Shown: positions 7,060 through 33,014 of the stretch, in pieces
Layout: each line of letters opens with the position of its first letter
Numbering within the stretch: position 1 is the first letter of the stretch
DNA from: Bacteroidia bacterium
GTDB taxonomy: Bacteria; Bacteroidota; Bacteroidia; AKYH767-A; OLB10
Reading direction: 5' to 3'
DNA: 34,529 nucleotides
Assembly (NCBI GenBank): GCA_016788185.1
Contig: JAEUTF010000120.1
Coordinates: forward strand, 1 to 34,529
Program-made: the position numbers and the translations under genes
Notes under the pieces: model-generated
What the model was told of the DNA's origin: nothing
Seen by the model: only the letters and a program-made list of their open reading frames with translations
Database searches by the model: none

Positions 7060-9345
7060 CTATTCAACCAGCAATTTCAGGGTATGATCCTGATCTTCCG
7101 ATTTCAGTTGTACAAAATAAACTCCGGAAGCGAAGTTTTCAATGTTTATTTCATGGCGGTTACTTCCTTCTCTGGTAGTGCCGCTGAAAGAATATACGAT
7201 GCGTCCGCTCAGATCCAGAAGTTGAAGGGTATAGGCTACTTTTTCGCGGCTTTCAAAACCGATCAGTACATCCGTACTGGCCGGGTTGGGATACAAACTT
7301 AACGGCATTGCTGAACCCTCGTCACCCAGGCGGATGCAATTCAAGGGGTCGATGCTGATGCCGTTTAAAACCCTTGGACTGCTGGCGCCGCAGGCATTGG
7401 AAGTAATGACGGAAACCTGCTGGCCGGAGGCGCTGATGGCTCCCCAGTTCACAAAGATTTCCTTAAAGCCCTGTGGTGAAATCAGGGTAGCTCCGGCCGG
7501 TATACTCCACTGATAACTGGTGGCTCCTGCTACAGTAGTGACTTCGTACTTGACATTGCTTTGCCCGTTGCATATGCTCACATCGCCGCTGATGGGGCCG
7601 GCTGGAGCCGGCGCTCCTTTCACGGCCAGACTTCTGGACGATCCCGATCCACAGGAATTGGAAGCGCTCACACTGATCGTGCCATTGGCAAAACTGCCAA
7701 AATCAACAAGGATAGCGTTGCTGCCCTGTCCGTTTACGATGTTAGCTCCCGCAGGAACGTTCCAGGTATAGCTCAGCGCATTGGGTACAGCAGGAATTGA
7801 ATACGATACCCCCAGTGCTTCACAAAGTCCGCTGCTAGCCCCGCTGATAGCGGCCGGTGTGGCAGGAAGATTTAATCCTGTACTCCGGGTTCTCACCGGA
7901 CTGGCACCGCAAACATTGACGGCACTGCAGGAAATGCTTCCTCCGGCAAAGAGATTGTCGGCACTCACCTGGATAATATTGGTACCCGCCCCACCGGTAA
8001 TGGTCAGGCCTGCAGGCAAGACCCATTGATAGGAGGAGGCACGGGCTACGTCGAGCACAGAATAGGTTCCGTTATCACCCGGACACAACCTGGCGGGTCC
8101 GGAAATCGAAGACGGACGAACAGGCGCTGCGTAATTGATATCGAGACTCAGCGAAGAAGCCTGTCCGGTTCCGCAATTGTCTACCGGTGCAACCGTAATG
8201 GCATCCAGGATGCCATCGTGCGCGGCCGCAGGCGACCATGAAACAAAAATGGATGTGGTTCCCTGCCCCGTTAAAATGGTCATGCCGGCCGGTACTGTCC
8301 AGAAATAACTGCTGGCTCCCGGAACAGAGGAAGTACTAAAGGTGGCCGAACCGGTGGTGACGGGTACACATTGGGAAGAGGGTCCGCTGATGGGACCGGC
8401 AACCAAAACATTACCCAGATCCGTAGTACCGTCGCAATCGTCATCGATCCCGTTACAAACTTCGATGGCTCCCGGGTAAACATTGCCGTTCGCATCGTTG
8501 CAGTCGGTGTTGTCGCTTACATAACCGGGGAGGGTAAGATTACAGCTGCTGCTTGAAACCAAAGGATCACCATAGCTGTCGCCATCGGTATCGGCGTAAA
8601 AAGTGTTCAAGGTCAATCCTTCATCCGTCAGTCCGTTGCAGTTATCATCAAGGCCATTGCACACCTCGGTGTTGTTGCCATTATCGGTGACATTCACATC
8701 GTCAATCAGCAGGAGGAATTGGTCGTTGGAGTTGTTTCGGAACGCGATATACACCGACTGGCCGGCAAAGGAACTCAGCGAAATGCTGCGTGCCGTCCAA
8801 CTGGTATTCTCGGCGGCTATATTGAATACTTGTGTGGAATTGCTGACCATGTTTCCGAGGTTTCCGGCACTGCCGGTGGGAGGGCCGGAAGAAACGGGCA
8901 TCACTCTCACTTCGTATCCATCCGGGTACAAAGGATCATAGGTCAGGGCATTCCAGTTGAGTACGGTGTTGGCGGTGATGGGACCGATGGCAGGGGTCCA
9001 GGCCCAATCGTCGGAGGCATTAACAGGGTTATACCATGAAGTACTGAACATCGCCGAATCCGTTACATTGTTGGCAAAATCTTCCCGGCGTTCCCAGGCA
9101 TCATTCACATAACCAACGGCAACTGCAGGAACATGGTTATCTACATTGACCAGTGTCCATCCCGCAGGGAAGTTATAAGTACCGGCTCCCCCGGCAGTAC
9201 TACCCGGGATGTTGTCAAAACTTTCGTTGAAAAGGGTAACAGGTGGGCATTGTGCCTGACTTAATACTGACCAAAGCATCAGTAAACTGAATGCTGTTGT
9301 TACCCGTACATTTTTTTTCAAAGGTCGGAGTACATTTTTCATCAT
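7060..9345 (-). CDS. T9SS-secreted multidomain protein (choice-of-anchor J-like, MopE-type motifs, PKD-like repeats, type A sorting tail)
   Basis: A 761-residue exported protein of unknown activity. The signal peptide is about 1-32 (ending SQAQ). A jelly-roll-like domain resembling choice-of-anchor J / cleaved adhesin follows (about 38-220; ESFDNIPG, FPAGW, LLIDDVNV). Next is a MopE-type putative metal-binding region (about 228-306; CNGLDDNCNG, YADTDGDSYGD, TDCNDANGNVYPGA, CNGIDDDCDG). Four PKD-like repeats of about 80-85 residues occupy 316-402, 411-493, 497-575 and 580-662, each with a xISGP start and an SYxWxxPAG core. The C-terminus (about 683-761; SLYPNPAS, DLSGR, SGVYFVQL) is a type A T9SS sorting domain that directs secretion across the outer membrane and surface anchoring. 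Two adjacent ATGs (9345, 9342) are possible starts. It is probably a surface adhesin or structural protein; ligand unknown. Confidence 0.9.
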   Translation of the reverse strand: MMKNVLRPLKKNVRVTTAFSLLMLWSVLSQAQCPPVTLFNESFDNIPGSTAGGAGTYNFPAGWTLVNVDNHVPAVAVGYVNDAWERREDFANNVTDSAMFSTSWYNPVNASDDWAWTPAIGPITANTVLNWNALTYDPLYPDGYEVRVMPVSSGPPTGSAGNLGNMVSNSTQVFNIAAENTSWTARSISLSSFAGQSVYIAFRNNSNDQFLLLIDDVNVTDNGNNTEVCNGLDDNCNGLTDEGLTLNTFYADTDGDSYGDPLVSSSSCNLTLPGYVSDNTDCNDANGNVYPGAIEVCNGIDDDCDGTTDLGNVLVAGPISGPSSQCVPVTTGSATFSTSSVPGASSYFWTVPAGMTILTGQGTTSIFVSWSPAAAHDGILDAITVAPVDNCGTGQASSLSLDINYAAPVRPSSISGPARLCPGDNGTYSVLDVARASSYQWVLPAGLTITGGAGTNIIQVSADNLFAGGSISCSAVNVCGASPVRTRSTGLNLPATPAAISGASSGLCEALGVSYSIPAVPNALSYTWNVPAGANIVNGQGSNAILVDFGSFANGTISVSASNSCGSGSSRSLAVKGAPAPAGPISGDVSICNGQSNVKYEVTTVAGATSYQWSIPAGATLISPQGFKEIFVNWGAISASGQQVSVITSNACGASSPRVLNGISIDPLNCIRLGDEGSAMPLSLYPNPASTDVLIGFESREKVAYTLQLLDLSGRIVYSFSGTTREGSNRHEINIENFASGVYFVQLKSEDQDHTLKLLVE

Positions 9346-9370
9346 GAATAGAGGTTGATTGGTTGAGTCA

Positions 9371-9378
9371 GAAATGTA
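9371..9378 (-). promoter_or_regulatory. Possible -7 promoter element of the 761-residue secreted protein
   Basis: The minus strand reads TACATTTC, one base off TAnnTTTG (C for the last G), 25 bases before the start, behind a T-rich tract. The rest of the gap between the two secreted-protein genes holds only the terminator of the upstream gene. Confidence 0.35.
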
Positions 9379-9488
9379 GAAATAAAAAAAACATACCATG
9401 ACAATTGCCTGCAAAAAAATATTCCCAAATGTGAATGAAATACAGTGTGCCGGGATCATGAGGAGCGGAACCATTCCTCAACGCCTGT

Positions 9489-9540: not shown

Positions 9541-12500
9541 TTACCGCAACAGAGTCACGGATCCGCTCTTCTCAATCTCCTGACCATTGGTTCCGAAAAT
9601 ACGAACGGTGTACACATAGGTACCCTCAGGAGCGATTTTGCCTTCATACGTACCATCCCAGCCTTCACCGGGCATACGTGTTTCATATACTTTTTGTCCC
9701 CACCGGTTAAAGACCACGAAGAAGTAGTTCTTAGCGTCGATGTAAATAAATTCCGGTTTAAATATCGGGTTTTTTCCGCCAGGTGTGAACGCACTGGGAA
9801 TAAATAAATGGGGTTCCTGTACCAGGCAGAAGATATTGGACTGGCTGGTATCTGCAAAACCATAACTGTTCCCCGGTCCTTCATAGGCGTCAATGCGGTA
9901 GCAGAAACGGCCTGAGTAGTTGGGGTACTGGTAAAGCGCAGCCACGTCATCATTGTACTCGAGAATTCCGTTGTTTACGGTGACGATGGGTGTCGGGCTC
10001 CAGACGCCGTCCACACTCCGGAACAGTGAATACCTGCTGACATCGCCCAGCCACTCTTCGTAGAAATTCCATTTCAGTTCATTCACCAGGTTGAATTCAG
10101 GCTGCCCGGTGAGGAGAATGGTCCGTCCCAGGTTGCTGATTAACACATCGTTTCCACAGGAATCCACCGTGATCACCCGGTAATAATAACTGTATTGATC
10201 GGTTCTGGCCGAGAAATCATTGAAGGTGATGATGGGCTGCCCGGTATAAGCGAGCGCCCCAACCGTGATAAAGGGACCAGTCTTATCAAAGGCCCTTTGC
10301 AGCTTGTATTTGGAGACGTCGGGGTTGTTGGCGGTATCGACCAGGCATTCTACAATGACCCGGCGAAGGTCAATCACGGTGGCCTTTTTAAGGTAACTGA
10401 AGGTGGGCAGGGTAAGCAGATTGGCTATTTCACAGGCCTGGTTGGACGAGGCGGTTCTGCTGCTGGTCACGCCCTGGGCTTGTACATAGTAGCAATATTC
10501 TGAGCCGTTGGTCAGGGTGGTATGGCTGTAGGTTACGTTGTTGCCGGGTACGGAAGCCAGGAACGTGAATGGTCCGCCATTTTCACTCACGTAAACGTTG
10601 TACTGAGCCACACCGTTCACCATGTTGATGTAGGGATTCCAGCGGAGATCGATGGCACTGCGGCAGATATCGAGTTTGGCCGTGATGAACAAGGTGTTTT
10701 GGCTGACACCGATGTTGCTGATATTTCTGCAACTGTCATAGGCGGCGATGCTGTATCGCTGAGGTCCGAATTCGGCAGCCGGGTTGTTGTGCAGGAAGTA
10801 ACTGGCATTGATGCCGGTCACGCTGCCTACAGAATCCCACGAAGCGCCGTTGAACTGGTAAATGATGTATCCAACAACATCTCCCGACGGGCTGGGCAGC
10901 CAGCTGACACTTACCTGCGAAGGGTTGAAAGGATCAAGGCTGGCCGTATCCAGAAGGGCTACGGTGGGCCGTGTTACATCACGGAACAGATCCCCATCGG
11001 TAGAGGACATGCTGAAACATCCCAGTTGATCGCCGGTCTCCACTTTGTAATTGATCACGGCTTCACATACATTGATGGTATCAAACCACTGGTACACCGG
11101 TGCGGTGGTTGAGCCAATGGTATTCCAGATGCCGGTAGGATATTCTTTGTAAACCGTATAGTTCAGACTGGCAGTGGCCAGCTCGGGGTTGTGCAATGGA
11201 TTCCAGGTAATGACCGCTACCCCGTTGTTGTTGAATACATCCACTTTGATGGTTTGCAGGGTATCTGATCCCGGTGAAACTTCACCGCCGCAGGCCGTTT
11301 GTGTGGTCATGAAATAATACATGGATGCCGCCTGTGCGTTGGCACCTGCATCGGTATAGCTGGTGGTACCGTAATTGGTAATAACGGCTACAGGAGCATA
11401 GGGACCACTGAGCGAAGCGGAACGGTAAATGGTATAGTTTGCAAAACGCATTCCGGTATCAACGGGCGCTACCCAGGTCAGTACGACCTGTCCGTTAGGT
11501 TGTACCGAAGCGCAGCGCGGTGATGGAGCAACCGGTACGGTATGGTCCACAAAAACTTCACCGTCAACATTCGACACCGAACTGCATCCGGCCGCGTCGG
11601 CAATGCTGACTTTATAATTTATAGAATCAATACAGAGTACCAGGTTTTCCTGCCAGCTGGTGGTATTCACGTTCGCGACCACCGACCAGTTGCCCGAACC
11701 ACCCGGGTTTTCTTTTTCAATGATATAGGTGGCGGCCGACGTGGGGAGTAAGGGATTGCTGACCGGATTCCAGTTCAGTGTAGCCGTCGTGGTGTTGCCA
11801 CCGCTTACGGTGAGGAAAATGGTGCTCAGTGTATTTCCATTCGCGGCACCGCCGATGGCAGAGGGGTCGGTCTGACCGCTGCAGCCCGACTTGGTTTGCA
11901 GATAATAACTGATAGAACCGGCGTTGCCGTTGGCTCCGGCATCAAGATAGGTGCTGATGCTGTTGGATTCGATGGAATCGATCAGCACAAAACCTGAGCC
12001 TGTATTTCTCCACAGGTTGAATTGATTGAAATCATCCCAGGTGGCAGGAGTGGGATTTACCCAGGTCAATTGCACCTGACCATTGGGCAGCACGCTGGCA
12101 CAGCGTAATTCGGGGTGATCAATCACATTACCAATGTACGTAAAGGTATTGGTGTCGATGTTGGAGATGCTGAAGCAGCCGGAATTGTCCTGTACCTGGA
12201 TGCGATGGAGCAGGGTGGTATCGCAATCGTTGATGACCTCGTTGGTAGTCAGGCCAGGGGTGCTGGTGAGCAAGGACCAGGGATTGCCGGTGATGTAGCT
12301 GGTTTGTACATCGTAACCGGTGGCCGCCGATGAAGGCAAAAGGGGCAGGGCATTCCAGTTCATGGTGGCCTGTCCGAGAACACCGGTAGAAGTAAGGTAG
12401 ATAGAATTCAGCGTGGCGCTGGTGGTTCCGTTATCAACCTGGCCGGTACAACCGCTCTGTGAACGCATGTAATAACTGTACGACTGCGCATTGCCGTTGG

Positions 12501-15500
12501 CATTGACATCGATCCAGCTGACCTGGTTGAAATTGCTGACGGAATCGTAGAGGACGAAACCGGCGCCGCTGTTGCGGTAGATTTCAAACTCGTTGAAATT
12601 GTCATTTGAACTGGCTGGCGTGAGCCACTCGAGCTGTATCTGTCCATTGGGCAAAACGCTGACGCAACGCAGATCCGGATTATCCACCACATTTCCGAGA
12701 TAGGTAAAGGTATTGGTGTCGATGTTGGAAATGCTGAAGCAGCCTGAATTGTCCTGTACCTGGATGCGGTGGAGCAGGGTGGTATCGCAATCGTTGATGA
12801 CTTCGTTGGCGGTCAGGGCCAGGGTGCTGGTGAGCAAGGACCAGGGATTGCCGGTGATGTAACTGGTCTGTACATCGTAACCGCTAGCCGCCGAGGAAGG
12901 CAGGAGGGGCAGGGCATTCCAGTTCATGGTGGCCTGTCCGAGAACACCGGTAGAAGAAAGGTAAATGGAGTTCAGCGTGGCACTGGTGGTTCCGTTATCA
13001 ACCTGGCCGGTACAACCGCTTTGTGAACGCATGTAATAACTGTACGACTGCGCATTGCCGTTGGCATTGACATCGATCCAGTTGACCTGGTTGAAATTGC
13101 TGACGGAATCGTAGAGGACGAAACCGGCGCCGCTGTTACGATAGATTTCAAATTCGTTGAAGTTGTCATTGGAACTGGCAGGCGTGAGCCACTCGAGCTG
13201 TATCTGTCCGTTGGGCAAAACGCTGACGCAACGCAGGTCCGGATTGTCCACCACATTGCCGAGATAGGTAAAGGTATTGGTGTCGATGTTGGAGATGCTG
13301 AAGCAGCCGGAATTGTCCTGTACCTGGATGCGGTGGAGCAGGGTCGTGTCGCAATCGTTGATGGCTTCGTTGGCAGTCAGGCCAGGGGTGCTGGTGAGCA
13401 AGGACCAGGGATTGCCGGTGATGTAGCTGGTCTGCACATCGTAACCGGTGGCCGCCGAGGAAGGCAGCAGGGGCAGGGCATTCCAGTTCATGGTGGCCTG
13501 TCCGAGAATACCGGTAGACGTAAGGTAAATGGAGTTCAGCGTGGCGCTGGTACTGCCATTGTCCAGTTGGCCGGTACAACCGCTTTGCGAACGCATGTAA
13601 TAACTATACGACTGCGCGTTGCCGTTGGCGTTGACATCGATCCAGCTGACCTGGTTGAAATTGCTGACGGAATCATAGAGGACGAAACCGGCGCCGCTGT
13701 TGCGGTAAATTTCGAACTCGTTGAATTCATCGTTGGAGCCGCCGGGACTAAGCCATTCGAGTTGGATTTGTCCGTTGGGCAATACGCTGACGCAACGCAG
13801 GTCCGGATTGTTGACAATGTTGCCGGTAAACGTGTAGGTGTTGGAGGCAATGTTGGATCGTGAGAAGCAGCCGAGCTGATCCTCCAGGTAAACCTGATGG
13901 CTGATCAGTGTATCGCAATCCAGAATCGGGTGGGAGTACACCAGTTGCACCGTATCTCCGATCCATTGGAGCGTACCCGCCACATTGTAGGTGGATGTAA
14001 CATTGTACTGGCCGCCTACGGTCGTGGCGGGCAAGGGGGAGGCCAGCGCGGTCCAGTTGAGGTTGGCCTGCCCGAGCACACCGGCGGTGGTCAGGAAAAT
14101 GGAGCTCAGGGTGTTTCCTGTTGCGCCGTTGGTGGCCTGTCCGGTGCAGCCGCTTTGCGTAACGAGGTAATAGCTGTACGGCTGTGCGTTACCGTTAGCA
14201 GTGATGTCTGTATAGGTGAACTGGGCGTTGTTGCCTGTTGAATCCAGAAGTACAAATCCGGCTCCTGAATTCCTCCAGATTTCATATTCGTTAAAGTTGG
14301 TAAAACTGGCCGGGGCGGGATTCTCCCAGGTCAGCTGAATGTTCCCGTTCACCTGTACATCCACACACCGCAGGATGGGGTTGCCGATGATATTTCCTAC
14401 ATAGGTAAATACATCGTTGTCGGCCGAACTGATGGACGTGCAGGGTGCATCGTCGTCCAGTTCAATCCGGTATTCATACGGAACGTTGCAAATGTCGATG
14501 GTATCCCTGTAGGTAAGGTTCGCGGTGGTTCCGAGCTGAATATAAGCTCCGACACCGGTACTGCGTCGCATCACCCGGTAAGGACCGGGGGCGGTACCCA
14601 GCATCGGACTGTGCATCGCATTCCAGTTCAGGTCTGCAAATCCGAGCGCCGCATTGCTGACATTTAAAAGCATGGTGGCCAGTGTATCGCTGGTGCTTCC
14701 ATTGGTCTGAAGGCCATCACAGCCGGAAAGGGATTTCAGGTAATAATATTGAATAGCATTGTTGGCATTGGCACCCACGTGGAGCCAGGTTGTGGTCAGG
14801 TAATTGGTTACTGTACCAACCAGTGTATACGGTCCGGCGGCAGAAGTACTGTGATAAATTTCAGCGCCTGCAAAGAAGGTGTTCGGATCGTTGGGAGCCA
14901 GCCAGCTGAGCTGAACATCACCGTTGGCTTGCACGGCAAGGCAGCGGAGATCCGGATTGTCGATGATATCGCCCAATGAGGTAAACTGGTCCTGGTCAAC
15001 AGATGATTTGGAGAAACAGGCGGAAGCATCACCGATGTCCACACGGTATTGAATCAGGGTATCGCAGAGCACAATGGTGTCGCGGTAGGTGGTATCGGTC
15101 GTGTTGCCGATGATCGCCCAGGCCCCGGGAGGTATTCTTCTGTTGATGATGTAGGAACCTGTACTGGTGGCCGGCAATGGATTCCGCAGCGAATTCCAGG
15201 CCAGATCAGCAAAGCCAATGCTGGCATTGTTGAGCGAAAGCAACATGGAGGCAAGCGTGTCGCTGGTGGCGACATCGGTTTCGTCAAGATTGGTGGCATC
15301 ACATCCAGCAACCAGGGTCAGATAATAGTAATTCACCTGGTTATTCGCATTGGCGCCTGCATGGGTGTAAGCGTTGGCTGAATAGACAGAAACCGAACCG
15401 ATTTTGGTGTAGGGTCCTGCTTTACTCAGAGAATGGTAGACTCCGTACTCCGAAAAGTACTGTGCGGTGTCTATACTGCCTACCCAGCAAAGGGCCACAT

Positions 15501-17535
15501 CGCCGTTGGCCAGGACTTCGGTTGATCGCAAAGAGGGCGCCGTGATGTTGGGAAGGGTACTTTGCAACTGGGCGCCGTCAATGTTGGACCGTGACACGCA
15601 ATTGGCAGCAGAGGTGTCAACTACATGTATTCTGTAATTGATGGAGTCGTTACAGACAAAAACTGGATCCAGGTACGAGAGGGAGGTGGTGGAATCCAGG
15701 AGGACCCAGTTTGCCGATCCCGCCGGCGGCTGTTCACGATAGATATAGTATTGTCCGGTGGTACTCGCACCCAGTGGGGTCATTAAAGGTGTCCAGGTGA
15801 GCGAAGCATCGGTGCCGACCTGCGATACCTGCAGGTGAATGGTACTGAGGGTATCGCTGATTTCCCTCGGAAGGAGGTCACAGCCTGAACGGGTGGTGAT
15901 GTAATACGATACCGGTCCGGAATTGGCATTGGCCGTGGCATCGAGATAGGTCAATACGGTATCATAATTGGTGATTTTAAATCCTTTGAGGCTATCCAGC
16001 AAACTGAATGGTCCGGCGGGTCCGGTCAAGGACCGGTAAATGTAAAAGGCTTTGAAAAACTGATTCGTATCCGATTCGCCGGTATCCACCGGGGGCAGGA
16101 AAGTCAGGTTGACGGTACCATTGGCCAGCACATCGGCGCATTTGAAACGGGCGGCCCCAACAGGAGGTGGAGCCAGTACCACAATCGTGAGCGTATTGAA
16201 ATTTACGGCGGGGGAAGGACAGAAGTTGTCAAAAACCTTTAACACGAAGTTGTAGGTACTCGACAGGTTGACACATCCCAGGTTTTTCGGCAGATGATTG
16301 CAGTCGGTAATCCAGAAGAAACGCGTTTGAAGGGTAAGGGGATAAAATAAGGTCTGGATAGGAGGGACCGTGTCAATCAACGGAGGGTCCAGGGTGGCAC
16401 AGGGCGGGAAGGGGCATCCGGCGCTCGCATTGGTGAAATTGGTACCGAACTGAGAGCCGGTGGCGGACAAACTCAGGCTCTGCGGCCCACCCCCCGCGTT
16501 GGCCGGCAGCGCTTCAAAATCGAAGGCGACCAGCGTGATATCAACCGTATCTCCGGCATACACCGTATCAATGATCTGGTTGAGGGGGTTTCCTAAAAGG
16601 TCCTGAACATCCGGAGGGGTATTGTATACGGTGGTCGGACTGGCTGGAGGTTGCGTGATGATGCAATTGTTGAGCAGCGCAATCTGAATTTCCCGGTAAA
16701 TTTCAGCCACTTTGATGTTGCACTTGTAGGCCGTAACTTTCGTCACAGTCACAAAGGCGCCGGGCGTGTAGGAGGTAAAAGTTACCACCCCGGTTGCCGA
16801 ATTCATGGTAGCGGCCACATTCAATGGGTTTTGGGCCGGGCCCGGCAAGGGGCTGCTGGCCGAATACCCTCCTGCGAAGGGGTAATTGGTACCCGGATAA
16901 CCGTTCTGAAGGGGATTTCCCCAGGAATAAACCAGCGAGTCGAGTTCAAGGTCAATCGCGTTGTGGTTGTAAGAGGTCTGGTTCCGGGTGCAGGTTCCTA
17001 ACTGGGGCTTTTCAGCAAATTGGGGAGATGAATCGAAACAGGGATTGGTGTTGGTCGCATTGTAGGGGTACATCACCGCTCTCAGGGTGAAATCACCGGC
17101 GCCGGCGCCCAGGTTGGTGATGGCTGCATTGCGGCAACAGTCATTGTAATAAAAATACCAACCCGTTACAGGAGGAACTCCGGTAATGAAAATCGGGGCG
17201 GACCGGTAAACGAATTCTTCAACCGCATTGGCATATCCCATGGGGTTGGCACAGGTCGGACACCCCGGCCCTACAGGTGAAATGTCGGTTTGGGAAATCA
17301 GGGTACAGACAATTCCGCCGGCCCATCCGGTAGCATTGGTGGTCAGGGTAACCGAGTTGGGGCCAGGAATACCGTTGCAGTCACGGTAAAGTTTAACCGT
17401 AAATATAAATCTGCCTGTATTGGGTCCGGATTTGACACAATCCCAGGTAACTTCGCCCCCCATGAGGTGGGACGCATGGGTGGCCGTACTCCCGATGGTA
17501 ATCAGGAATAACAGCAAGGATAAAATTCTTTTCAT
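9541..17535 (-). CDS. Giant repetitive surface protein with gliding-motility-type (type B) T9SS C-terminal domain
   Basis: A 2664-residue exported protein. The signal peptide ends around THA (residue 21). The mature N-terminus starts SHLMGGEVTWDC, an opening often seen in large Bacteroidota secreted proteins. About 450 residues without an assigned fold follow. The middle is a chain of about nine units of roughly 190 residues. Each starts near LRCxxVxxNGxxxLxW and looks like two fibronectin-III-like beta-sandwiches carrying YxIYR and SYYxxxxSGC signatures. Three units (about residues 1240-1803) are nearly identical. The last 88 residues (HLFIPSAFTPGG, FNRWGQKVYE, WDGTYEGK, PEGTYVYTV) are a CHU_C / gliding-motility-associated C-terminal domain, a T9SS type B signal. 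It is likely a cell-surface filament or adhesin of the SprB class in general design. The start at 17535 is chosen because an in-frame ATG at 17565 lies in the promoter box. No PorP/SprF-like gene adjoins it. Confidence 0.93.
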   Translation of the reverse strand: MKRILSLLLFLITIGSTATHASHLMGGEVTWDCVKSGPNTGRFIFTVKLYRDCNGIPGPNSVTLTTNATGWAGGIVCTLISQTDISPVGPGCPTCANPMGYANAVEEFVYRSAPIFITGVPPVTGWYFYYNDCCRNAAITNLGAGAGDFTLRAVMYPYNATNTNPCFDSSPQFAEKPQLGTCTRNQTSYNHNAIDLELDSLVYSWGNPLQNGYPGTNYPFAGGYSASSPLPGPAQNPLNVAATMNSATGVVTFTSYTPGAFVTVTKVTAYKCNIKVAEIYREIQIALLNNCIITQPPASPTTVYNTPPDVQDLLGNPLNQIIDTVYAGDTVDITLVAFDFEALPANAGGGPQSLSLSATGSQFGTNFTNASAGCPFPPCATLDPPLIDTVPPIQTLFYPLTLQTRFFWITDCNHLPKNLGCVNLSSTYNFVLKVFDNFCPSPAVNFNTLTIVVLAPPPVGAARFKCADVLANGTVNLTFLPPVDTGESDTNQFFKAFYIYRSLTGPAGPFSLLDSLKGFKITNYDTVLTYLDATANANSGPVSYYITTRSGCDLLPREISDTLSTIHLQVSQVGTDASLTWTPLMTPLGASTTGQYYIYREQPPAGSANWVLLDSTTSLSYLDPVFVCNDSINYRIHVVDTSAANCVSRSNIDGAQLQSTLPNITAPSLRSTEVLANGDVALCWVGSIDTAQYFSEYGVYHSLSKAGPYTKIGSVSVYSANAYTHAGANANNQVNYYYLTLVAGCDATNLDETDVATSDTLASMLLSLNNASIGFADLAWNSLRNPLPATSTGSYIINRRIPPGAWAIIGNTTDTTYRDTIVLCDTLIQYRVDIGDASACFSKSSVDQDQFTSLGDIIDNPDLRCLAVQANGDVQLSWLAPNDPNTFFAGAEIYHSTSAAGPYTLVGTVTNYLTTTWLHVGANANNAIQYYYLKSLSGCDGLQTNGSTSDTLATMLLNVSNAALGFADLNWNAMHSPMLGTAPGPYRVMRRSTGVGAYIQLGTTANLTYRDTIDICNVPYEYRIELDDDAPCTSISSADNDVFTYVGNIIGNPILRCVDVQVNGNIQLTWENPAPASFTNFNEYEIWRNSGAGFVLLDSTGNNAQFTYTDITANGNAQPYSYYLVTQSGCTGQATNGATGNTLSSIFLTTAGVLGQANLNWTALASPLPATTVGGQYNVTSTYNVAGTLQWIGDTVQLVYSHPILDCDTLISHQVYLEDQLGCFSRSNIASNTYTFTGNIVNNPDLRCVSVLPNGQIQLEWLSPGGSNDEFNEFEIYRNSGAGFVLYDSVSNFNQVSWIDVNANGNAQSYSYYMRSQSGCTGQLDNGSTSATLNSIYLTSTGILGQATMNWNALPLLPSSAATGYDVQTSYITGNPWSLLTSTPGLTANEAINDCDTTLLHRIQVQDNSGCFSISNIDTNTFTYLGNVVDNPDLRCVSVLPNGQIQLEWLTPASSNDNFNEFEIYRNSGAGFVLYDSVSNFNQVNWIDVNANGNAQSYSYYMRSQSGCTGQVDNGTTSATLNSIYLSSTGVLGQATMNWNALPLLPSSAASGYDVQTSYITGNPWSLLTSTLALTANEVINDCDTTLLHRIQVQDNSGCFSISNIDTNTFTYLGNVVDNPDLRCVSVLPNGQIQLEWLTPASSNDNFNEFEIYRNSGAGFVLYDSVSNFNQVSWIDVNANGNAQSYSYYMRSQSGCTGQVDNGTTSATLNSIYLTSTGVLGQATMNWNALPLLPSSAATGYDVQTSYITGNPWSLLTSTPGLTTNEVINDCDTTLLHRIQVQDNSGCFSISNIDTNTFTYIGNVIDHPELRCASVLPNGQVQLTWVNPTPATWDDFNQFNLWRNTGSGFVLIDSIESNSISTYLDAGANGNAGSISYYLQTKSGCSGQTDPSAIGGAANGNTLSTIFLTVSGGNTTTATLNWNPVSNPLLPTSAATYIIEKENPGGSGNWSVVANVNTTSWQENLVLCIDSINYKVSIADAAGCSSVSNVDGEVFVDHTVPVAPSPRCASVQPNGQVVLTWVAPVDTGMRFANYTIYRSASLSGPYAPVAVITNYGTTSYTDAGANAQAASMYYFMTTQTACGGEVSPGSDTLQTIKVDVFNNNGVAVITWNPLHNPELATASLNYTVYKEYPTGIWNTIGSTTAPVYQWFDTINVCEAVINYKVETGDQLGCFSMSSTDGDLFRDVTRPTVALLDTASLDPFNPSQVSVSWLPSPSGDVVGYIIYQFNGASWDSVGSVTGINASYFLHNNPAAEFGPQRYSIAAYDSCRNISNIGVSQNTLFITAKLDICRSAIDLRWNPYINMVNGVAQYNVYVSENGGPFTFLASVPGNNVTYSHTTLTNGSEYCYYVQAQGVTSSRTASSNQACEIANLLTLPTFSYLKKATVIDLRRVIVECLVDTANNPDVSKYKLQRAFDKTGPFITVGALAYTGQPIITFNDFSARTDQYSYYYRVITVDSCGNDVLISNLGRTILLTGQPEFNLVNELKWNFYEEWLGDVSRYSLFRSVDGVWSPTPIVTVNNGILEYNDDVAALYQYPNYSGRFCYRIDAYEGPGNSYGFADTSQSNIFCLVQEPHLFIPSAFTPGGKNPIFKPEFIYIDAKNYFFVVFNRWGQKVYETRMPGEGWDGTYEGKIAPEGTYVYTVRIFGTNGQEIEKSGSVTLLR
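12127..13818 (-). repeat. Three tandem 564-bp near-identical repeats inside the giant surface-protein gene
   Basis: Copies lie at 12127-12690, 12691-13254 and 13255-13818 with an exact 564-bp period (188 codons). I checked this by the recurring string cattccagttcatggtggcc, which begins at 12351, 12915 and 13479. Copies differ at scattered bases only. At the protein level the copy at 13255-13818 has SPGGSNDE where the other two have TPASSNDN. Sequence outside the array keeps the domain pattern but diverges abruptly, for example at 13819. The unit spans two beta-sandwich domains and stays in frame, so copy number can change without breaking the protein. Confidence 0.95.
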
Positions 17536-17562
17536 TGGTTTGGATGGATAACGCGTGAGGTC

Positions 17563-17593
17563 CAAACTTAATAATAAAAATGGTATCCCGCAA
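17563..17593 (-). promoter_or_regulatory. Promoter of the giant surface-protein gene (-33 TTG, -7 TAAGTTTG)
   Basis: The minus strand has TTG at 17593-17591, a 20-base spacer, then TAAGTTTG at 17570-17563, matching the Bacteroidota -33/-7 layout. The -7 box ends 27 bases before the start codon. The promoter lies in the short gap after the M16 peptidase operon, so the giant gene probably has its own transcript. Confidence 0.65.
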
Positions 17594-17597
17594 TGGC

Positions 17598-18881
17598 TTA
17601 TTTGCCAACAACTATTTCCGTTAGGTCACCCTCCTGAAAATAGAGGTTAGCACAATCTTTGATCTCCGCCGCACTTACCTGCTCAATGGCCGCCAGGTAC
17701 TCTTTTAAGTAACTTGTATTCAAATTGTTAAGGCAAAGCATCTTGTGTTTGTCCGCCAGGGCAAAGGGGCCGTCGATGCTGCGCTGAAAAGCGCCGGTGA
17801 GATAGTTTTTAACAAGCCGTAACTCCTGCGGAGATACCAGTTCTTCGCGCAGCTTTTTTAACTCCAGATAAATTTCATGGATGGCCGCTTCCCGTACTTC
17901 TGCCCCTACCTCAGTGCTGATGAAGAAATAGCCTTCCTGGTCCTGGCTGACCAGGCCCGAGCCGATGCCGTAGGTGTAGCCTTTGTCTTCACGTATATTG
18001 CTCATCAGCCGTGATCCGAAATAGCCGCCAAGAATGGTGTTGAGCACGCTGAATTTGAAATAATCCGGATGATGCCGGGTGAACAAACGTCTTCCGATGC
18101 GTATGGCCGATTGAAGGGCATCGGTTTTTTCACTGAACTGTTTGCTGGTTTCCGGAAATATTCTTTCCGCAGCGGGGAGACTCCCGCTTTGCAGTCCACT
18201 TTCGTCGATGGCTTTGAGGATGGCGGAGATACTTTCTTCCGATGCCTGCCCTGCTATGAAAACGGCTCTTAAGCCATTCAGATACCCTGACTGGTGATAC
18301 TTTTTTAAGGCTTCCGTAGAGAGTTGATCGTAATCTTCCGGCTTGATGATTCGCCCATACGGGTGTGCTTCTCCGAAAAGTGCCTGAATAAATTTTCTTC
18401 GAGCTAAAAAGTCAACTTTGGTGAGGTTCACCGCCAGTCTTTGTTTCCCTTGTTGCCGGTAGGTCCTGATTTCCTGTTCGGGAAAGGCAGGCGCACACAC
18501 CAGTTCCATGAGAAAAGGCAGCGTTTTTTGAGAGAATTTGCTCAATGTGAAGAGCGTCACACTCGACCAGTCCGCGCCACTTTCCGACTCCAGGTAGGCT
18601 CCGAAATAATCCAGGGCCTCGGCCAGTTCAGCCGAACTGTACTTGGCTGTTCCTTCGTCCAGAAGATCATTGGTGGCCGTGGCCAGCAAGGGAACCGGAG
18701 CCGCCATGTTTCCGGCAGCAAAAACGAGTTCGGTCTTCAGTACTTCCTGTGTACCGGAACGAAGGATATAAACCGGAACACCAGCTCGGGTTTGTCTGAT
18801 TTCAGGTTCCTGAACGTTCAGGTCGGCGGCTGTTTTGATGTCGGGGGCTGTATGTCTGTTTAACATTTCAGGATTTGGCAT
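17598..18881 (-). CDS. M16-family peptidase-like subunit without the zinc motif
   Basis: A 427-residue M16 (pitrilysin/insulinase) family protein lacking the inverted zinc motif HxxEH. The equivalent segment reads NDLLDEGT. The substrate-binding signature of the family's second half is kept (GSRLMSNIREDKGYTYG, with the Arg/Tyr pair). This is the pattern of the non-catalytic partner in bacterial M16 heterodimers. It directly follows, with a 14-base overlap, an M16 gene that does have the zinc motif, so the two probably form one enzyme. A second Met at 18866 is an alternative start without overlap. No signal peptide is seen, so it is likely cytoplasmic. Confidence 0.9.
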   Translation of the reverse strand: MPNPEMLNRHTAPDIKTAADLNVQEPEIRQTRAGVPVYILRSGTQEVLKTELVFAAGNMAAPVPLLATATNDLLDEGTAKYSSAELAEALDYFGAYLESESGADWSSVTLFTLSKFSQKTLPFLMELVCAPAFPEQEIRTYRQQGKQRLAVNLTKVDFLARRKFIQALFGEAHPYGRIIKPEDYDQLSTEALKKYHQSGYLNGLRAVFIAGQASEESISAILKAIDESGLQSGSLPAAERIFPETSKQFSEKTDALQSAIRIGRRLFTRHHPDYFKFSVLNTILGGYFGSRLMSNIREDKGYTYGIGSGLVSQDQEGYFFISTEVGAEVREAAIHEIYLELKKLREELVSPQELRLVKNYLTGAFQRSIDGPFALADKHKMLCLNNLNTSYLKEYLAAIEQVSAAEIKDCANLYFQEGDLTEIVVGK

Positions 18882-20103
18882 GATAGCGAAGGATGGAACA
18901 ATTTTCGTCGCGCAGCACGTCTGTGGCTACGCGCATGATGTCCTCTTTGGTGACGCTGTTGTAAGAGGATGACTGAAGGTTGCAAAGTCCGGCGTCGCCC
19001 AGCATTTCAAAATAGGCCAGGTGGAGGGCTTTGTTGGCAATGCCCATTTCTGAAAACTCCAGTGACGATTCCGCCTTGTGGCGAACTTTCCCGAGCTCAC
19101 GGTCGTCTATATCCGATTTTACCCTTTCCAGTTCCTCCAGCAAGGCCTTTTCGGCTTCTTCCATGGAGACGCCGTTTACCAGTTTTCCCTCAACGTAAAG
19201 CAGACTTTTGTCCAGATCCCCCAGCATGTAGGCGCTGACTTCAGTGAATACAGGCCGTTGCTTGACCAGTTTTTGGTACAATCGCGATGACTTTCCCCTC
19301 GAAAGGATGTCGCTCAGCAGGTCGGTGGCGAAAAATTCATGCTCATGCCTGGCGCAGCAGTGCCAGACCATATAAAGATGTGAATGCGGGACATCTTCGA
19401 AGACTTCTTCCGTTCTTTTTTCATTTTGGACAGGCTCCTGCGGGAGATGACGGGCCGGAACATCGGCGGCCGGGATCGGTTCAAACCATTTCACGGCAAG
19501 CTCCCGGGCCCGTTCCAGCGTACAGTTTCCGGCAATGCTCAGGATGGCGTTGTTGGGCGCATACCACTTTTTGAAAAAGGATTTGACATCCCCGAGAGAA
19601 GCGTTTTCAATGTGTGAAAGCTCTTTTCCGATGGTGGCCCAACGGTACGGGTGAACTTTGTAAGCCAATGGGCGAAGCTTCAGCCATACATCACCGTAAG
19701 GTTGGTTCAGGTATCGTTGCTTGAACTCCTCCACCACCACCGATCGTTGTACCTCGAGGCTTTTTTCCGTAAATGCCAGACTCAGCATCCGGTCGCTCTC
19801 CAGCCAGAAACCGGTTTCAAGATTCTGGGAGGGAATGGTTAAATAATAATTGGTGATATCGTTGTTTGTAAAGGCATTGTTTTCGCCCCCGGCTAGCTGC
19901 AGGGGTTCGTCGTAGCTGGGAATGTTCACCGATCCGCCAAACATCAGGTGTTCGAACAGATGGGCAAAGCCCGTTTGGGATGGATCTTCATCCCGCGCCC
20001 CGACTTTGTACAGGATGTTCATGGCAACCAGGGGGGTTGAATGGTCTTCGTGTACAATGACCGTTAGTCCGTTTTTCAGACTGAATTTTTCAAACTTGAT
20101 CAT
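18868..20103 (-). CDS. M16-family zinc metallopeptidase, catalytic subunit
   Basis: A 411-residue M16B peptidase. The inverted zinc motif HLFEH is at residues 48-52 inside the usual context GFAHLFEHLMFGG. The downstream glutamate ligand lies in VVVEEFKQR (E125/E126), at the family's normal spacing of about 75 residues. No signal peptide is visible, so cytoplasmic degradation or processing of small peptides is likely; the substrate is unknown. It starts 5 bases after the nitronate monooxygenase-like gene and overlaps the zinc-less M16 gene by 14 bases. The arrangement indicates an operon and a heterodimer of active and inactive subunits. Confidence 0.93.
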   Translation of the reverse strand: MIKFEKFSLKNGLTVIVHEDHSTPLVAMNILYKVGARDEDPSQTGFAHLFEHLMFGGSVNIPSYDEPLQLAGGENNAFTNNDITNYYLTIPSQNLETGFWLESDRMLSLAFTEKSLEVQRSVVVEEFKQRYLNQPYGDVWLKLRPLAYKVHPYRWATIGKELSHIENASLGDVKSFFKKWYAPNNAILSIAGNCTLERARELAVKWFEPIPAADVPARHLPQEPVQNEKRTEEVFEDVPHSHLYMVWHCCARHEHEFFATDLLSDILSRGKSSRLYQKLVKQRPVFTEVSAYMLGDLDKSLLYVEGKLVNGVSMEEAEKALLEELERVKSDIDDRELGKVRHKAESSLEFSEMGIANKALHLAYFEMLGDAGLCNLQSSSYNSVTKEDIMRVATDVLRDENCSILRYHAKS

Positions 20104-24121: not shown

Positions 24122-25177
24122 ATGTCCGGAATGAAAAACACTGTTTTCCTGATCATCTTCTTCCTGGCAGGGCTTGGAAATTCATGTTCGCTGGCCCAGA
24201 GCGGCGGCAACAATACTTTTGAATTTCTGAACCTGGTGGCTCCCGCCAGAGCTGCGGCCCTTGGAGGAAATGCCATCGCCACCCGGAGCGATGACATCAC
24301 CCTGACGGCGCAAAATCCGGCTTTGTATGATCCCGAAATGGACCAGCAAGTGTCCCTCAGTTACGTAGCCTATCTGGCCGGCATCAGGTATGGGAATGTC
24401 ATGCTGGCCAAAGATTTTTCTGCTGCCGGGACTTTTGGATTTAACCTGCAATACATCAGTTACGGAGAATTTGAGGAGACCTCCGTTACTTCTGAAAAAA
24501 CAGGCAGTTTCAGCGCCGGAGAATATGCCTTCAATGTAGGCTGGAGTAAAGCGCTTGACAGTGGTCTTTACATCGGTGCCAACGTGAAATACATTACCTC
24601 CTCCTTTGGCGATAACCATTCGAACGGGCTGGCAGCCGATCTGGGTCTTAACTGGTCCGACAGGGAAAAGTTCTGGAGTGCTTCCCTGGTGCTCAAAAAT
24701 GTGGGCCGGCAACTGAAAGCCTATGAAGGCGCGGAACGTGAAAAACTGCCTTTTGAAATTCAGGCGGGGGTGGCCCGGCAATTGCCCAAAGCGCCATTCC
24801 GGTTTTCACTGATAGCACAGCACTTGCAGACTTTTGACATCACCTATACCGACCCTTCTCAGGCAGGCATTGATCCTTTGACGGGTGAAAGCAAGAGCGA
24901 TAAAATCAATACTTTCGATAAAGTGGTGAGGCACCTGGTGTTCAATGTGGAGATTTTGTTTTCCAAAAATTTCAATGCACGGCTGGGCTATAATTTCCTG
25001 CGCAGAAATGAATTGGGTTTCCCTGAGAAAAAGGGCATGAGCGGGATGAGCCTGGGTCTTGGTTTCAAGGTAAGTAAGTTTAATTTCAGCTATGCCCACA
25101 GCATTTTCAATACTGCAGCCGGCAGCAATCATTTTACCGTGACCACCAACCTGAAAAACTTCGCGGGCAGGGATTAA
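24122..25177 (+). CDS. porQ: Type IX secretion system protein PorQ
   Basis: A 351-residue exported outer-membrane beta-barrel-type protein recognised as PorQ. Landmarks are a signal peptide ending near SLAQ, then GGNNTFEFLNLVAPARAAALGG, a stretch resembling TAQNPALYDPEM, VSLSYVAYLAGIRYG, LQYISYGEF, and repeated beta strands with alternating hydrophobic residues up to a strand-like C-terminus (HFTVTTNLKNFAG). In Porphyromonas PorQ belongs to the attachment complex with PorU, PorV and PorZ, which cleaves sorting tails and attaches cargo to the cell surface. Here it could serve the type A cargo encoded at 7060-9345. A second Met at 24131 is an equally good signal-peptide start. It is the last gene of the plus-strand group and converges on smpB; the 75-base gap holds only a weak 4-bp hairpin followed by TTTT at 25196-25210. 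Confidence 0.88.
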   Translation: MSGMKNTVFLIIFFLAGLGNSCSLAQSGGNNTFEFLNLVAPARAAALGGNAIATRSDDITLTAQNPALYDPEMDQQVSLSYVAYLAGIRYGNVMLAKDFSAAGTFGFNLQYISYGEFEETSVTSEKTGSFSAGEYAFNVGWSKALDSGLYIGANVKYITSSFGDNHSNGLAADLGLNWSDREKFWSASLVLKNVGRQLKAYEGAEREKLPFEIQAGVARQLPKAPFRFSLIAQHLQTFDITYTDPSQAGIDPLTGESKSDKINTFDKVVRHLVFNVEILFSKNFNARLGYNFLRRNELGFPEKKGMSGMSLGLGFKVSKFNFSYAHSIFNTAAGSNHFTVTTNLKNFAGRD

Positions 25178-31102: not shown

Positions 31103-31169
31103 ACCGGGAATATCCGTTAAAAGACCGATGAATATTTTTAAAATAGAATCAACTCCCTTGCTAAAAAAA

Positions 31170-33014
31170 ATGACTTCAAAAAACTGGCTGTTCCTTGTGT
31201 GCTGTATCCTGATTTCCGGTGCAAGCATGGGCCAGCAGCCGGGCTACCTGGAATTAATCGGGAACGTCCAGCAGGATGGAAAGGGGCTGGAAGGAGCAGA
31301 AATCAAAGTGATGAAAGGAAGCGAGAATGCCGACAATCTGCTTACTTCCGCGCAGGGTAAATTCATTTTTAACCTTGATCTGGGGCATTCATATACCATC
31401 GTCTTCTCGAAAAACGGCAGTATCACCAAATCGGTTTTGGTGGATACCAAAGTACCGGAGCAGTACAATAGCCAGATTTTCAGTTTTAAGTTCAAAATAG
31501 ATTTGTTCAAAGCGCCGGAAGGACAGGAACCTCCCAAGGAAGCCGCACCTCCGGTGACGAAGCTGGCCTATAGCGATGTGTATGAGGATTTCGATTACGA
31601 TCCCGAATATTCCAAATCACGCAAAGCGGAAATGGAGGTGGTGAAACAGAAAATGGCCATTGAAGTCGCCAAACAGGATGCAGTGAAAAAGGCAGCTTTG
31701 GAGAAAGCCAGGCAGGACTCTCTGGCAGAAGCCCGGAAAGTTCAACTCGCACAGGAAAAAGCCAGGCAGGATTCACTCGCGGAAGCAAAGAAGATTCAGC
31801 AGGCACTCGAAAAGGTACGTCAGGATTCGCTGGCCCGCGAGCGTGAGAAGCAAAGACTGGAGGCTCTGGCACGTGCCGAAGCGGAGAAATTGGTGCAGGA
31901 CTCCCTTGCCAGGGATAAAGAAAAGCAACGGGCAGAAGCTGCTATGATCGCTGCCCGTGAGAAGTCAAAACAGGATAGTCTGGTCGCCGTGGAAAAGGCA
32001 AAACTGGCAGCGGAGGCAGCCGAGAAGGCCAGGTTAAAAGCGTCGCAGGATTCACTCGCCAGAGTATTGGATAAACAGCGGCAGGATTCTTTGGCTTTAG
32101 CAAAAGAAAAAGAGCGTATCGCCAAACTGGCTTTCGAGAAGGCCCAGCAGGATTCCATCGAAACCGCACGTGAAAAAGCCCGCATCGCTGAAATCGCACG
32201 GAAAGAAAGGGAGAAAATTACAGCGGATTCCCTGGCCGCGGAAAAGGAAAAAGCGCGTTTGGCGGAGTTGGCCAGGCAGGCCCGTGAAAAAGCGGTGGCG
32301 GACTCTTTGGCGGTCGAGAAGGAGAAAGCGCGTCAGTCGGAACTGGCACGTCTGGCCCGCGAAAAAGCGGTGAAGGACTCCCTGGCTGCCGAAGAAGAGA
32401 AAGCACGTCAGGTGGCCCTCGCAGCGGCTCAGGAAAAGGCAAAACAGGAAGAGTTGGATAGAATCACAAGGGAAAAAGCCAGGCAGGAAGAACTGGCCAA
32501 AGCCAGGGAAAAATTCAGGCAGGATTCCCTTGCCGAGGCGAAGGAGAAAGCACGCAAACTTGAATTTGAGCGCGAAGCCAGAATACAGGCACAAAAGGAT
32601 TCGATCGATAAAGTAAAACGTCAGCAAGAAGAAGAAGCTTCACGAATCGCCGCGGAAATGAAGCGCAAACAGGAGGAAGAAGCAGAGCGAAAGCGGCAGG
32701 AAGAAATAGAAGCGAAGAAGAAAGCCCTGGCCGGATCGCAGCAGACCACCCCGAAGAAACCGGCAGCCGACATCAGCGCCTACAAATTTGATTTCGATAA
32801 ACAGTTCATCGCGGAGGGCATTACCCAGGATACGATTACCGAGAGCAACCGCGTCATTTTACGTTCCATCGTGAAGTCGAAGGCGGTACAGGCTACCTAC
32901 CTCCGGGTAACCTACAGTTATGGAGGGGTCTTCTATTTCAAGAACAGCCAGAGCATCACCGAGAATACCTACAACCAGGAAATGGATGCTCACCGTAAGA
33001 CATTGCTGAAATAG
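31170..33014 (+). CDS. Exported long-helix protein with DSL repeats and an N-terminal carboxypeptidase-regulatory-like domain
   Basis: A 614-residue exported protein of unknown function. The signal peptide is MTSKNWLFLVCCILISGASMGQ. A beta-sandwich resembling the carboxypeptidase regulatory-like (transthyretin-fold) domain follows (about residues 25-100; LIGNVQQDGKGLEGAEIKV, GKFIFNL). A ~350-residue Lys/Glu/Ala/Arg-rich segment then carries about 14 copies of DSL/DSI, mostly 25 residues apart, predicted to be one long alpha-helix or coiled coil. The last ~70 residues (from AYKFDFDKQF) form a compact C-terminal domain I cannot assign. The design recalls periplasm-spanning proteins such as TolA, but no homology is claimed. 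An in-frame ATG at 31128 would add 14 residues before the signal peptide and is an alternative start. Confidence 0.85.
   Translation: MTSKNWLFLVCCILISGASMGQQPGYLELIGNVQQDGKGLEGAEIKVMKGSENADNLLTSAQGKFIFNLDLGHSYTIVFSKNGSITKSVLVDTKVPEQYNSQIFSFKFKIDLFKAPEGQEPPKEAAPPVTKLAYSDVYEDFDYDPEYSKSRKAEMEVVKQKMAIEVAKQDAVKKAALEKARQDSLAEARKVQLAQEKARQDSLAEAKKIQQALEKVRQDSLAREREKQRLEALARAEAEKLVQDSLARDKEKQRAEAAMIAAREKSKQDSLVAVEKAKLAAEAAEKARLKASQDSLARVLDKQRQDSLALAKEKERIAKLAFEKAQQDSIETAREKARIAEIARKEREKITADSLAAEKEKARLAELARQAREKAVADSLAVEKEKARQSELARLAREKAVKDSLAAEEEKARQVALAAAQEKAKQEELDRITREKARQEELAKAREKFRQDSLAEAKEKARKLEFEREARIQAQKDSIDKVKRQQEEEASRIAAEMKRKQEEEAERKRQEEIEAKKKALAGSQQTTPKKPAADISAYKFDFDKQFIAEGITQDTITESNRVILRSIVKSKAVQATYLRVTYSYGGVFYFKNSQSITENTYNQEMDAHRKTLLK

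Follow-up and report, generated by a model that had tools for sequence, protein, structure and literature searches.

A 564-bp triplicate in a giant surface protein gene of an uncultured Bacteroidota bacterium as probable lineage-specific copies of a central stalk unit

Highly similar tandem units inside a large surface protein gene raise the question of whether the array is young and still changing or has long been maintained in its present form. This question is posed by a 34,529-nucleotide stretch of DNA (here, the window) that corresponds to one whole contig (G000:C251; JAEUTF010000120.1 of assembly GCA_016788185.1) of the draft genome of a Bacteroidia bacterium, 3.2 Mb in 282 contigs. Its reverse strand carries an open reading frame (ORF) at positions 9541 to 17565, open for 2,674 codons counted from the first TTG, which encodes a giant surface protein containing three consecutive in-frame blocks of 564 bp at 12127 to 13818. 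With a probability of about 0.72, we consider these blocks to be copies of a central stalk unit that are specific to this lineage, in a surface protein secreted by the type IX system, an arrangement that resembles that of the Periscope Proteins.

Divergence and age of the three copies

When the protein was cut at the conserved unit start, nine units of 185 to 205 residues (u1 to u9) were recognized behind an N-terminal head. The boundaries derived in this way reproduce exactly the span of three in-frame units of 188 codons that the initial annotation had reported, i.e., u5 (13255 to 13818), u6 (12691 to 13254), and u7 (12127 to 12690), all on the reverse strand. Identity at a lag of 564, computed in 48-nt windows, stays at a background of ~0.27 over most of the gene and is mostly between 0.8 and 0.98 in the array. 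A search of the whole window for direct repeats with copies of at least 100 nt returned one family only, with three copies spaced by 564 and 564; Tandem Repeats Finder, whose longest period is 500, misses the array. The six other units had been described as diverged, and neighbors outside the triplicate indeed share only ~35 to 51% of their amino acids. Likewise, u6 and u7, which lie at the 12127 end and share the motif TPASSNDN, form the closest pair (ultrafast bootstrap [UFBoot] of 100); the initial annotation had judged them the youngest.

The description of the copies as differing by few bases does not hold, since 60, 62, and 35 of the 564 nt differ in the pairwise comparisons (89 to 93% identity, with counts taken in a register shifted by 9 nt). 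These differences fall mostly at third codon positions. In the 12127 to 13818 register, synonymous divergence (dS) among u5 to u7 amounts to 0.42, 0.51, and 0.28 and nonsynonymous divergence (dN) to 0.040, 0.033, and 0.016, and the encoded proteins are 92 to 96% identical. Every copy is under purifying selection, given a dN/dS ratio of 0.05 to 0.10. By the yardstick that the initial annotation had set for its own proposal, namely, large synonymous distances between the copies, a dS of 0.28 to 0.51 represents substantial synonymous divergence. The proposed recent amplification thus survives in part: the copies are lineage specific, grouping together to the exclusion of those of the nearest species compared, but the qualifier “recent” does not fit their dS. 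The latter falls inside the range measured with positional units between two separate species among the relatives, G018 and G014 (0.17 to 0.92). Between genomes of one genus, dS of the frame units (those at both ends of the array, see below) exceeds what the method can measure in nearly all comparisons; the triplication thus postdates the separation from the nearest species compared, without being young in absolute terms.

Ongoing gene conversion among the copies of this genome, the other process that had been put forward, was likewise not borne out. The silent-site run test gave p values of 0.43 to 0.83 for the three pairs, and silent-site clustering gave 0.011 to 0.44, the value of 0.011 being uncorrected over three pairs. 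An all-site run test reached 0.010 for one of the three pairs; this was not upheld at silent sites, and gene conversion is not put forward for this genome. Among relatives, lower values were obtained for silent-site clustering in G018 (0.0018 for u4-u5 and 0.0016 for u5-u6) and for a silent-site run in G020 (0.0047 for u5-u6). Since many pairs were tested there without correction (3 pairs in G018, 6 in G020, 15 in each of G007 and G022, and 15 in a G007/G022 set), single low p values are treated as leads only. They suggest that partial exchange may occur in G018 and G020, not in this genome.

Frame and central units across related genomes

A whole-protein search gave matches in 96 of 100 related genomes. 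The family to which the window itself belongs comprises 24 genomes in 10 genera, from 18 of which 20 stretches were retrieved; G013, G017, and G019 were assessed from search tables alone. At least two units are present at the gene in 11 of the 24 genomes (G000, G002, G003, G004, G007, G009, G010, G014, G018, G020, and G022). Complete genes contain nine units in the window, four in G004, seven in G003, eight in G018, nine in G020, and 11 in both G007 and G022, and these counts support the conclusion that protein length varies between species, from 4 to 11 units. In G010 (locus L040), six units are complete and one TAA interrupts the seventh, whether as a real feature or through an assembly error. 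The contigs of G002, G009, and G014 end within the array. Exact repeats were considered as the cause for G002 and G009 but found no support, the overlap within their contigs being 0; the contigs of G014, which stop within a central unit, overlap by 61 bp. The G023 contig begins inside the last unit, and G001 and G021 give weak matches only.

In seven retrieved genomes, the head is followed by one recognized unit (G005, G006, G008, G011, G012, G015, and G016). Behind head and unit, other repeats follow in G005, G012, and G016. A different repeat stands behind the same head at L034 (G005), with a lag of 624 and an identity of 0.87 in the best window, and at L042 (G012) and L046 (G016), with a lag of 630 and identities of 0.75 to 0.77. 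Many genomes outside the family show a frame of ~1,100 residues, and L063, a Bacteroidales record from a distant relative, holds head, one unit, and tail in 1,153 residues between M16 peptidase homologs and an IMP dehydrogenase (IMPDH). The simplest reading would be that a one-unit gene of ~1,100 residues grew in this family.

A maximum likelihood tree of 86 units from 11 genomes separates two kinds of units. The first three units, which in the window are u1 (15547 to 16161, a positional ortholog), u2 (14968 to 15546), and u3 (14392 to 14967), are each monophyletic by position, as are the penultimate unit, here u8 (11536 to 12126), and the last unit, here u9 (10981 to 11535), whose type is the one retained in one-unit forms (UFBoot, 99 to 100). 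This positional matching extends across two genera and into fragments of a third. Among the central units, the grouping instead follows genome or lineage. Genome-specific clades with a UFBoot of 100 are formed by u5 to u7 of the window, u5-u6 of G002, and u4-u5 of G003; broader central clades unite u4 to u9 of G007 and G022 (99), the units of G018 and G014 (78), and all those of genus g5 (89). The remaining central unit of the window, u4 (13819 to 14391, type A), pairs with u4 of G002 (UFBoot, 100). Between G007 and G022, u4, u8, and u9 pair by position and u5 to u7 do not. A FastTree protein tree of 94 units recovers the same sets. Taken together, these groupings support a central zone that would have amplified repeatedly inside a fixed frame.

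Several observations weigh against such a history. All unit counts come from draft metagenome-assembled genomes, including the three whose contigs end inside the array. In a FastTree codon tree of the 94 units, u1 is not monophyletic, and neither FastTree tree recovers the central units of G020 alone as a clade; support for the central units of genus g5 is moderate (UFBoot, 78 to 89). The array is stable in G007 and G022, each of which has 11 units with positional pairing of u4, u8, and u9. Concerted evolution of an old array could also give clustering by lineage; among the copies of the window, the silent-site tests show no tracts.

Unit fold, secretion, and competing explanations

The u6-u7 pair was modeled with an alignment that added 21 further unit pairs, taken from the window and related loci. 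The model contains four fibronectin type III (FnIII) domains (predicted local distance difference test [pLDDT], 91.7; predicted template modeling score [pTM], 0.72). Its best Foldseek match is a four-domain fibronectin fragment (E value of 1e-12), and VIA-align superimposes it on the FnIII pair of integrin beta4 with a Z score of 11.3 and a root mean square deviation of 6.2 over 177 aligned residues. Based on these matches, each unit is predicted to be a pair of FnIII domains. By sequence, solved structures gave only weak titin and Fn3-like matches to the units (E values of 0.066 and 0.22), and the Pfam fn3 profile has no match in the array, its sole stretch in the protein lying behind it (residues 2299 to 2367). 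Four cysteines are present in each of the nine units, 36 in total, at places that match except for the first one of u2, which would be consistent with one disulfide per FnIII domain. Pfam DUF3172 matches three stretches of the protein (E value of 2.1e-14, the best at residues 1755 to 1822); this identity was set aside, as repetition may have inflated the score and structure comparison points to FnIII.

The conserved head (16156 to 17475, residues ~31 to 470) appears to consist of several immunoglobulin (Ig)-like beta sandwiches. It was aligned across nine relatives, in which it is 45 to 68% identical and present in a single copy. It has no Pfam family and no relative by sequence among solved structures; its AlphaFold2 model is moderate (pLDDT, 69; pTM, 0.69), and the 50 Foldseek matches listed are generic Ig-like ones with a query TM-score (TMq) of at most 0.20. 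Upstream, the protein likely starts at the ATG at 17535 (codon 11), which precedes a stretch resembling a signal peptide; this start was chosen because of the sequence found there and the MKK or MKR starts of relatives.

At the other end, a C-terminal stem and sorting domain for type IX secretion (9544 to 10980) are conserved in 10 relatives. The CHU_C domain at the C terminus (residues 2589 to 2672) scores 45.4 bits against a cutoff of 27, and TIGR04131, the type B tail, reaches 34.0 bits, one bit below its cutoff of 35. The genome encodes SprA in two pieces, above cutoff, and six PorP-family genes, five above cutoff and one below. With SprA and PorP-family genes above their cutoffs, an export route exists, and the protein is probably exported and anchored at the outer membrane. 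On the same contig, the ORF at 24122 to 25177 of the forward strand encodes a PorV-family outer membrane protein, a type IX secretion relative (32.3 bits against a cutoff of 27).

In the reading that we favor, head, u1 to u3, u8, u9, stem, and secretion tail would constitute a fixed frame within which the central zone gains and loses units. Unequal homologous recombination between adjacent units through the conserved inter-unit junction would be the most likely route, as the minimal mechanism for whole-unit, in-register changes; similarity in the array fades within ~60 bases of this junction, which would thus suit exchange. Most likely, the head is displayed at the tip of an FnIII stalk, which would be stiff and keep it at a distance from the cell; the length of this stalk would depend on the number of central units, such that amplification would change length. 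More speculatively, and we think this somewhat unlikely, the design could be self-limiting: the five frame units would be too unlike the central ones to recombine, and growth and shrinkage would be confined to a central zone reused across species, tuning the reach of the head while the head- and anchor-proximal parts stay intact.

Neutral birth and death, in which the array center duplicates more easily than the ends and length has no function, is a reasonable alternative that we do not prefer. Domain repeats often expand in the middle of an array and several domains at once (PMC1553488, in the portion relied on here), and the unit numbers of 7 to 11 follow no visible trend; against this stand the purifying selection on every copy (dN/dS of 0.05 to 0.10) and the retained frame, which show that folding is kept, not that length is important. 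A strict Periscope Protein, with copies still exchanging sequence and a unit number that varies today between strains or within a population, is unlikely. The repeat identity of 92 to 96% does exceed the 80% used to find Periscope Proteins (excerpts of PMC8201768), and the silent-site hints of tracts in G018 and G020, together with the overlapping G014 contig ends inside a central unit, would fit such a state. However, the copies in the window combine a dS of 0.28 to 0.51 with no significant silent-site run, and G007 and G022 have both 11 units at a dS of ~0.6 to 1.0 (about 0.8).

FnIII domains can bind ligands, and the units themselves could be adhesive, with amplification raising avidity and not reach. 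A survey of fibrillar adhesins also questions whether stalk and adhesive repeats can be strictly separated (PMC8286594, in part). We find this quite improbable, since the nine aligned relatives have a single, conserved head, which fits a head that binds and an array that serves as its stalk. Finally, an assembler that made or miscounted the triplicate is very hard to reconcile with the data, even though the genome is a draft of 282 contigs and contigs of three relatives end inside the array. Exact direct repeats in the array reach 65 bp at most, and k-mers or reads longer than this tell the copies apart, making a simple collapse or duplication unlikely; moreover, the 35 to 62 bases that differ between copies leave the frame intact and are mostly silent, which is the pattern of evolved sequence, and independent assemblies of relatives share the architecture.

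The lineage-specific stalk copies that we favor find their closest parallel in the Periscope Proteins, such as SasG, Rib, Sgo_0707, and CdrA (PMC8201768 and PMC9704523, in part). As far as those excerpts go, the shared features are an N-terminal head, tandem highly similar folded domains, a varying number of units, and Ig-like beta-sandwich stalk domains, and the 188-residue units at 92 to 96% identity lie within the range by which such proteins are recognized (tandem repeats of more than 50 residues with at least 80% identity). Unlike in Periscope Proteins, the variation seen here is between species only (one genome per species, 4 to 11 units), the unit is an FnIII pair, and the type IX system would provide the anchoring; the string “Bacteroid” is absent from the main text of both papers. 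Excerpts of PMC8286594 describe Bacteroidota proteins that combine stalk repeats and a CHU_C tail, and name 134 fibrillar adhesin-like proteins. The present protein shares phylum, stalk repeats, and tail with them but differs in that Pfam recognizes no known adhesive domain in its head. Like SprB, the gliding adhesin of Flavobacterium johnsoniae, it is a very large protein with a type B tail (PMC9143113, in part); SprB, however, adjoins the gene of a PorP-like partner, SprF, whereas contig C251 carries none of this genome's six PorP-family matches. Mid-array, multidomain expansion is a general pattern of domain repeats in a survey of 24 proteomes (PMC1553488, as excerpted); here, by comparison, it is seen in a single orthologous bacterial gene across several lineages. 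A literature search over titles and abstract openings, which does not prove absence from print, found none that names this protein. If correct, our reading adds a type IX secreted protein of uncultured Bacteroidota to the length-variable stalk proteins, which have so far been described mainly among sortase-anchored proteins and autotransporters of cultured bacteria. It would also provide one orthologous gene in which phylogeny separates the frame from the amplifying units, making selection on stalk length testable across species.

Gene neighborhood and other features of the contig

No relative of the array was found in phage records by tblastn. Upstream of the gene, two M16 peptidase-like genes (17598 to 20103, reverse strand), identified by Pfam and synteny, are conserved neighbors. 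In 16 of the 20 stretches, the gene has an M16 homolog nearby; three of the four others start inside the gene, and that of G004 is without one. An IMPDH homolog is found in 11 of the 20. Three of the nine misses end inside the gene, and the stretches of G004, G006, G008, G010, G011, and G015 gave none. Between the giant gene and the IMPDH gene of the window, the reverse-strand ORF at 7060 to 9474 encodes a type A protein of the type IX secretion system, with four PKD_6 stretches, a choice-of-anchor J domain, and a MopE-like metal motif; no homolog of it was detected in the 36 loci L031 to L066 at an E value of 1e-20. Further along the contig, the forward-strand ORF at 31128 to 33014, which lacks a Pfam match, encodes charged, alanine-rich, coiled-coil-like repeats with units of 54 and 75 bp and 74 to 75% matches.

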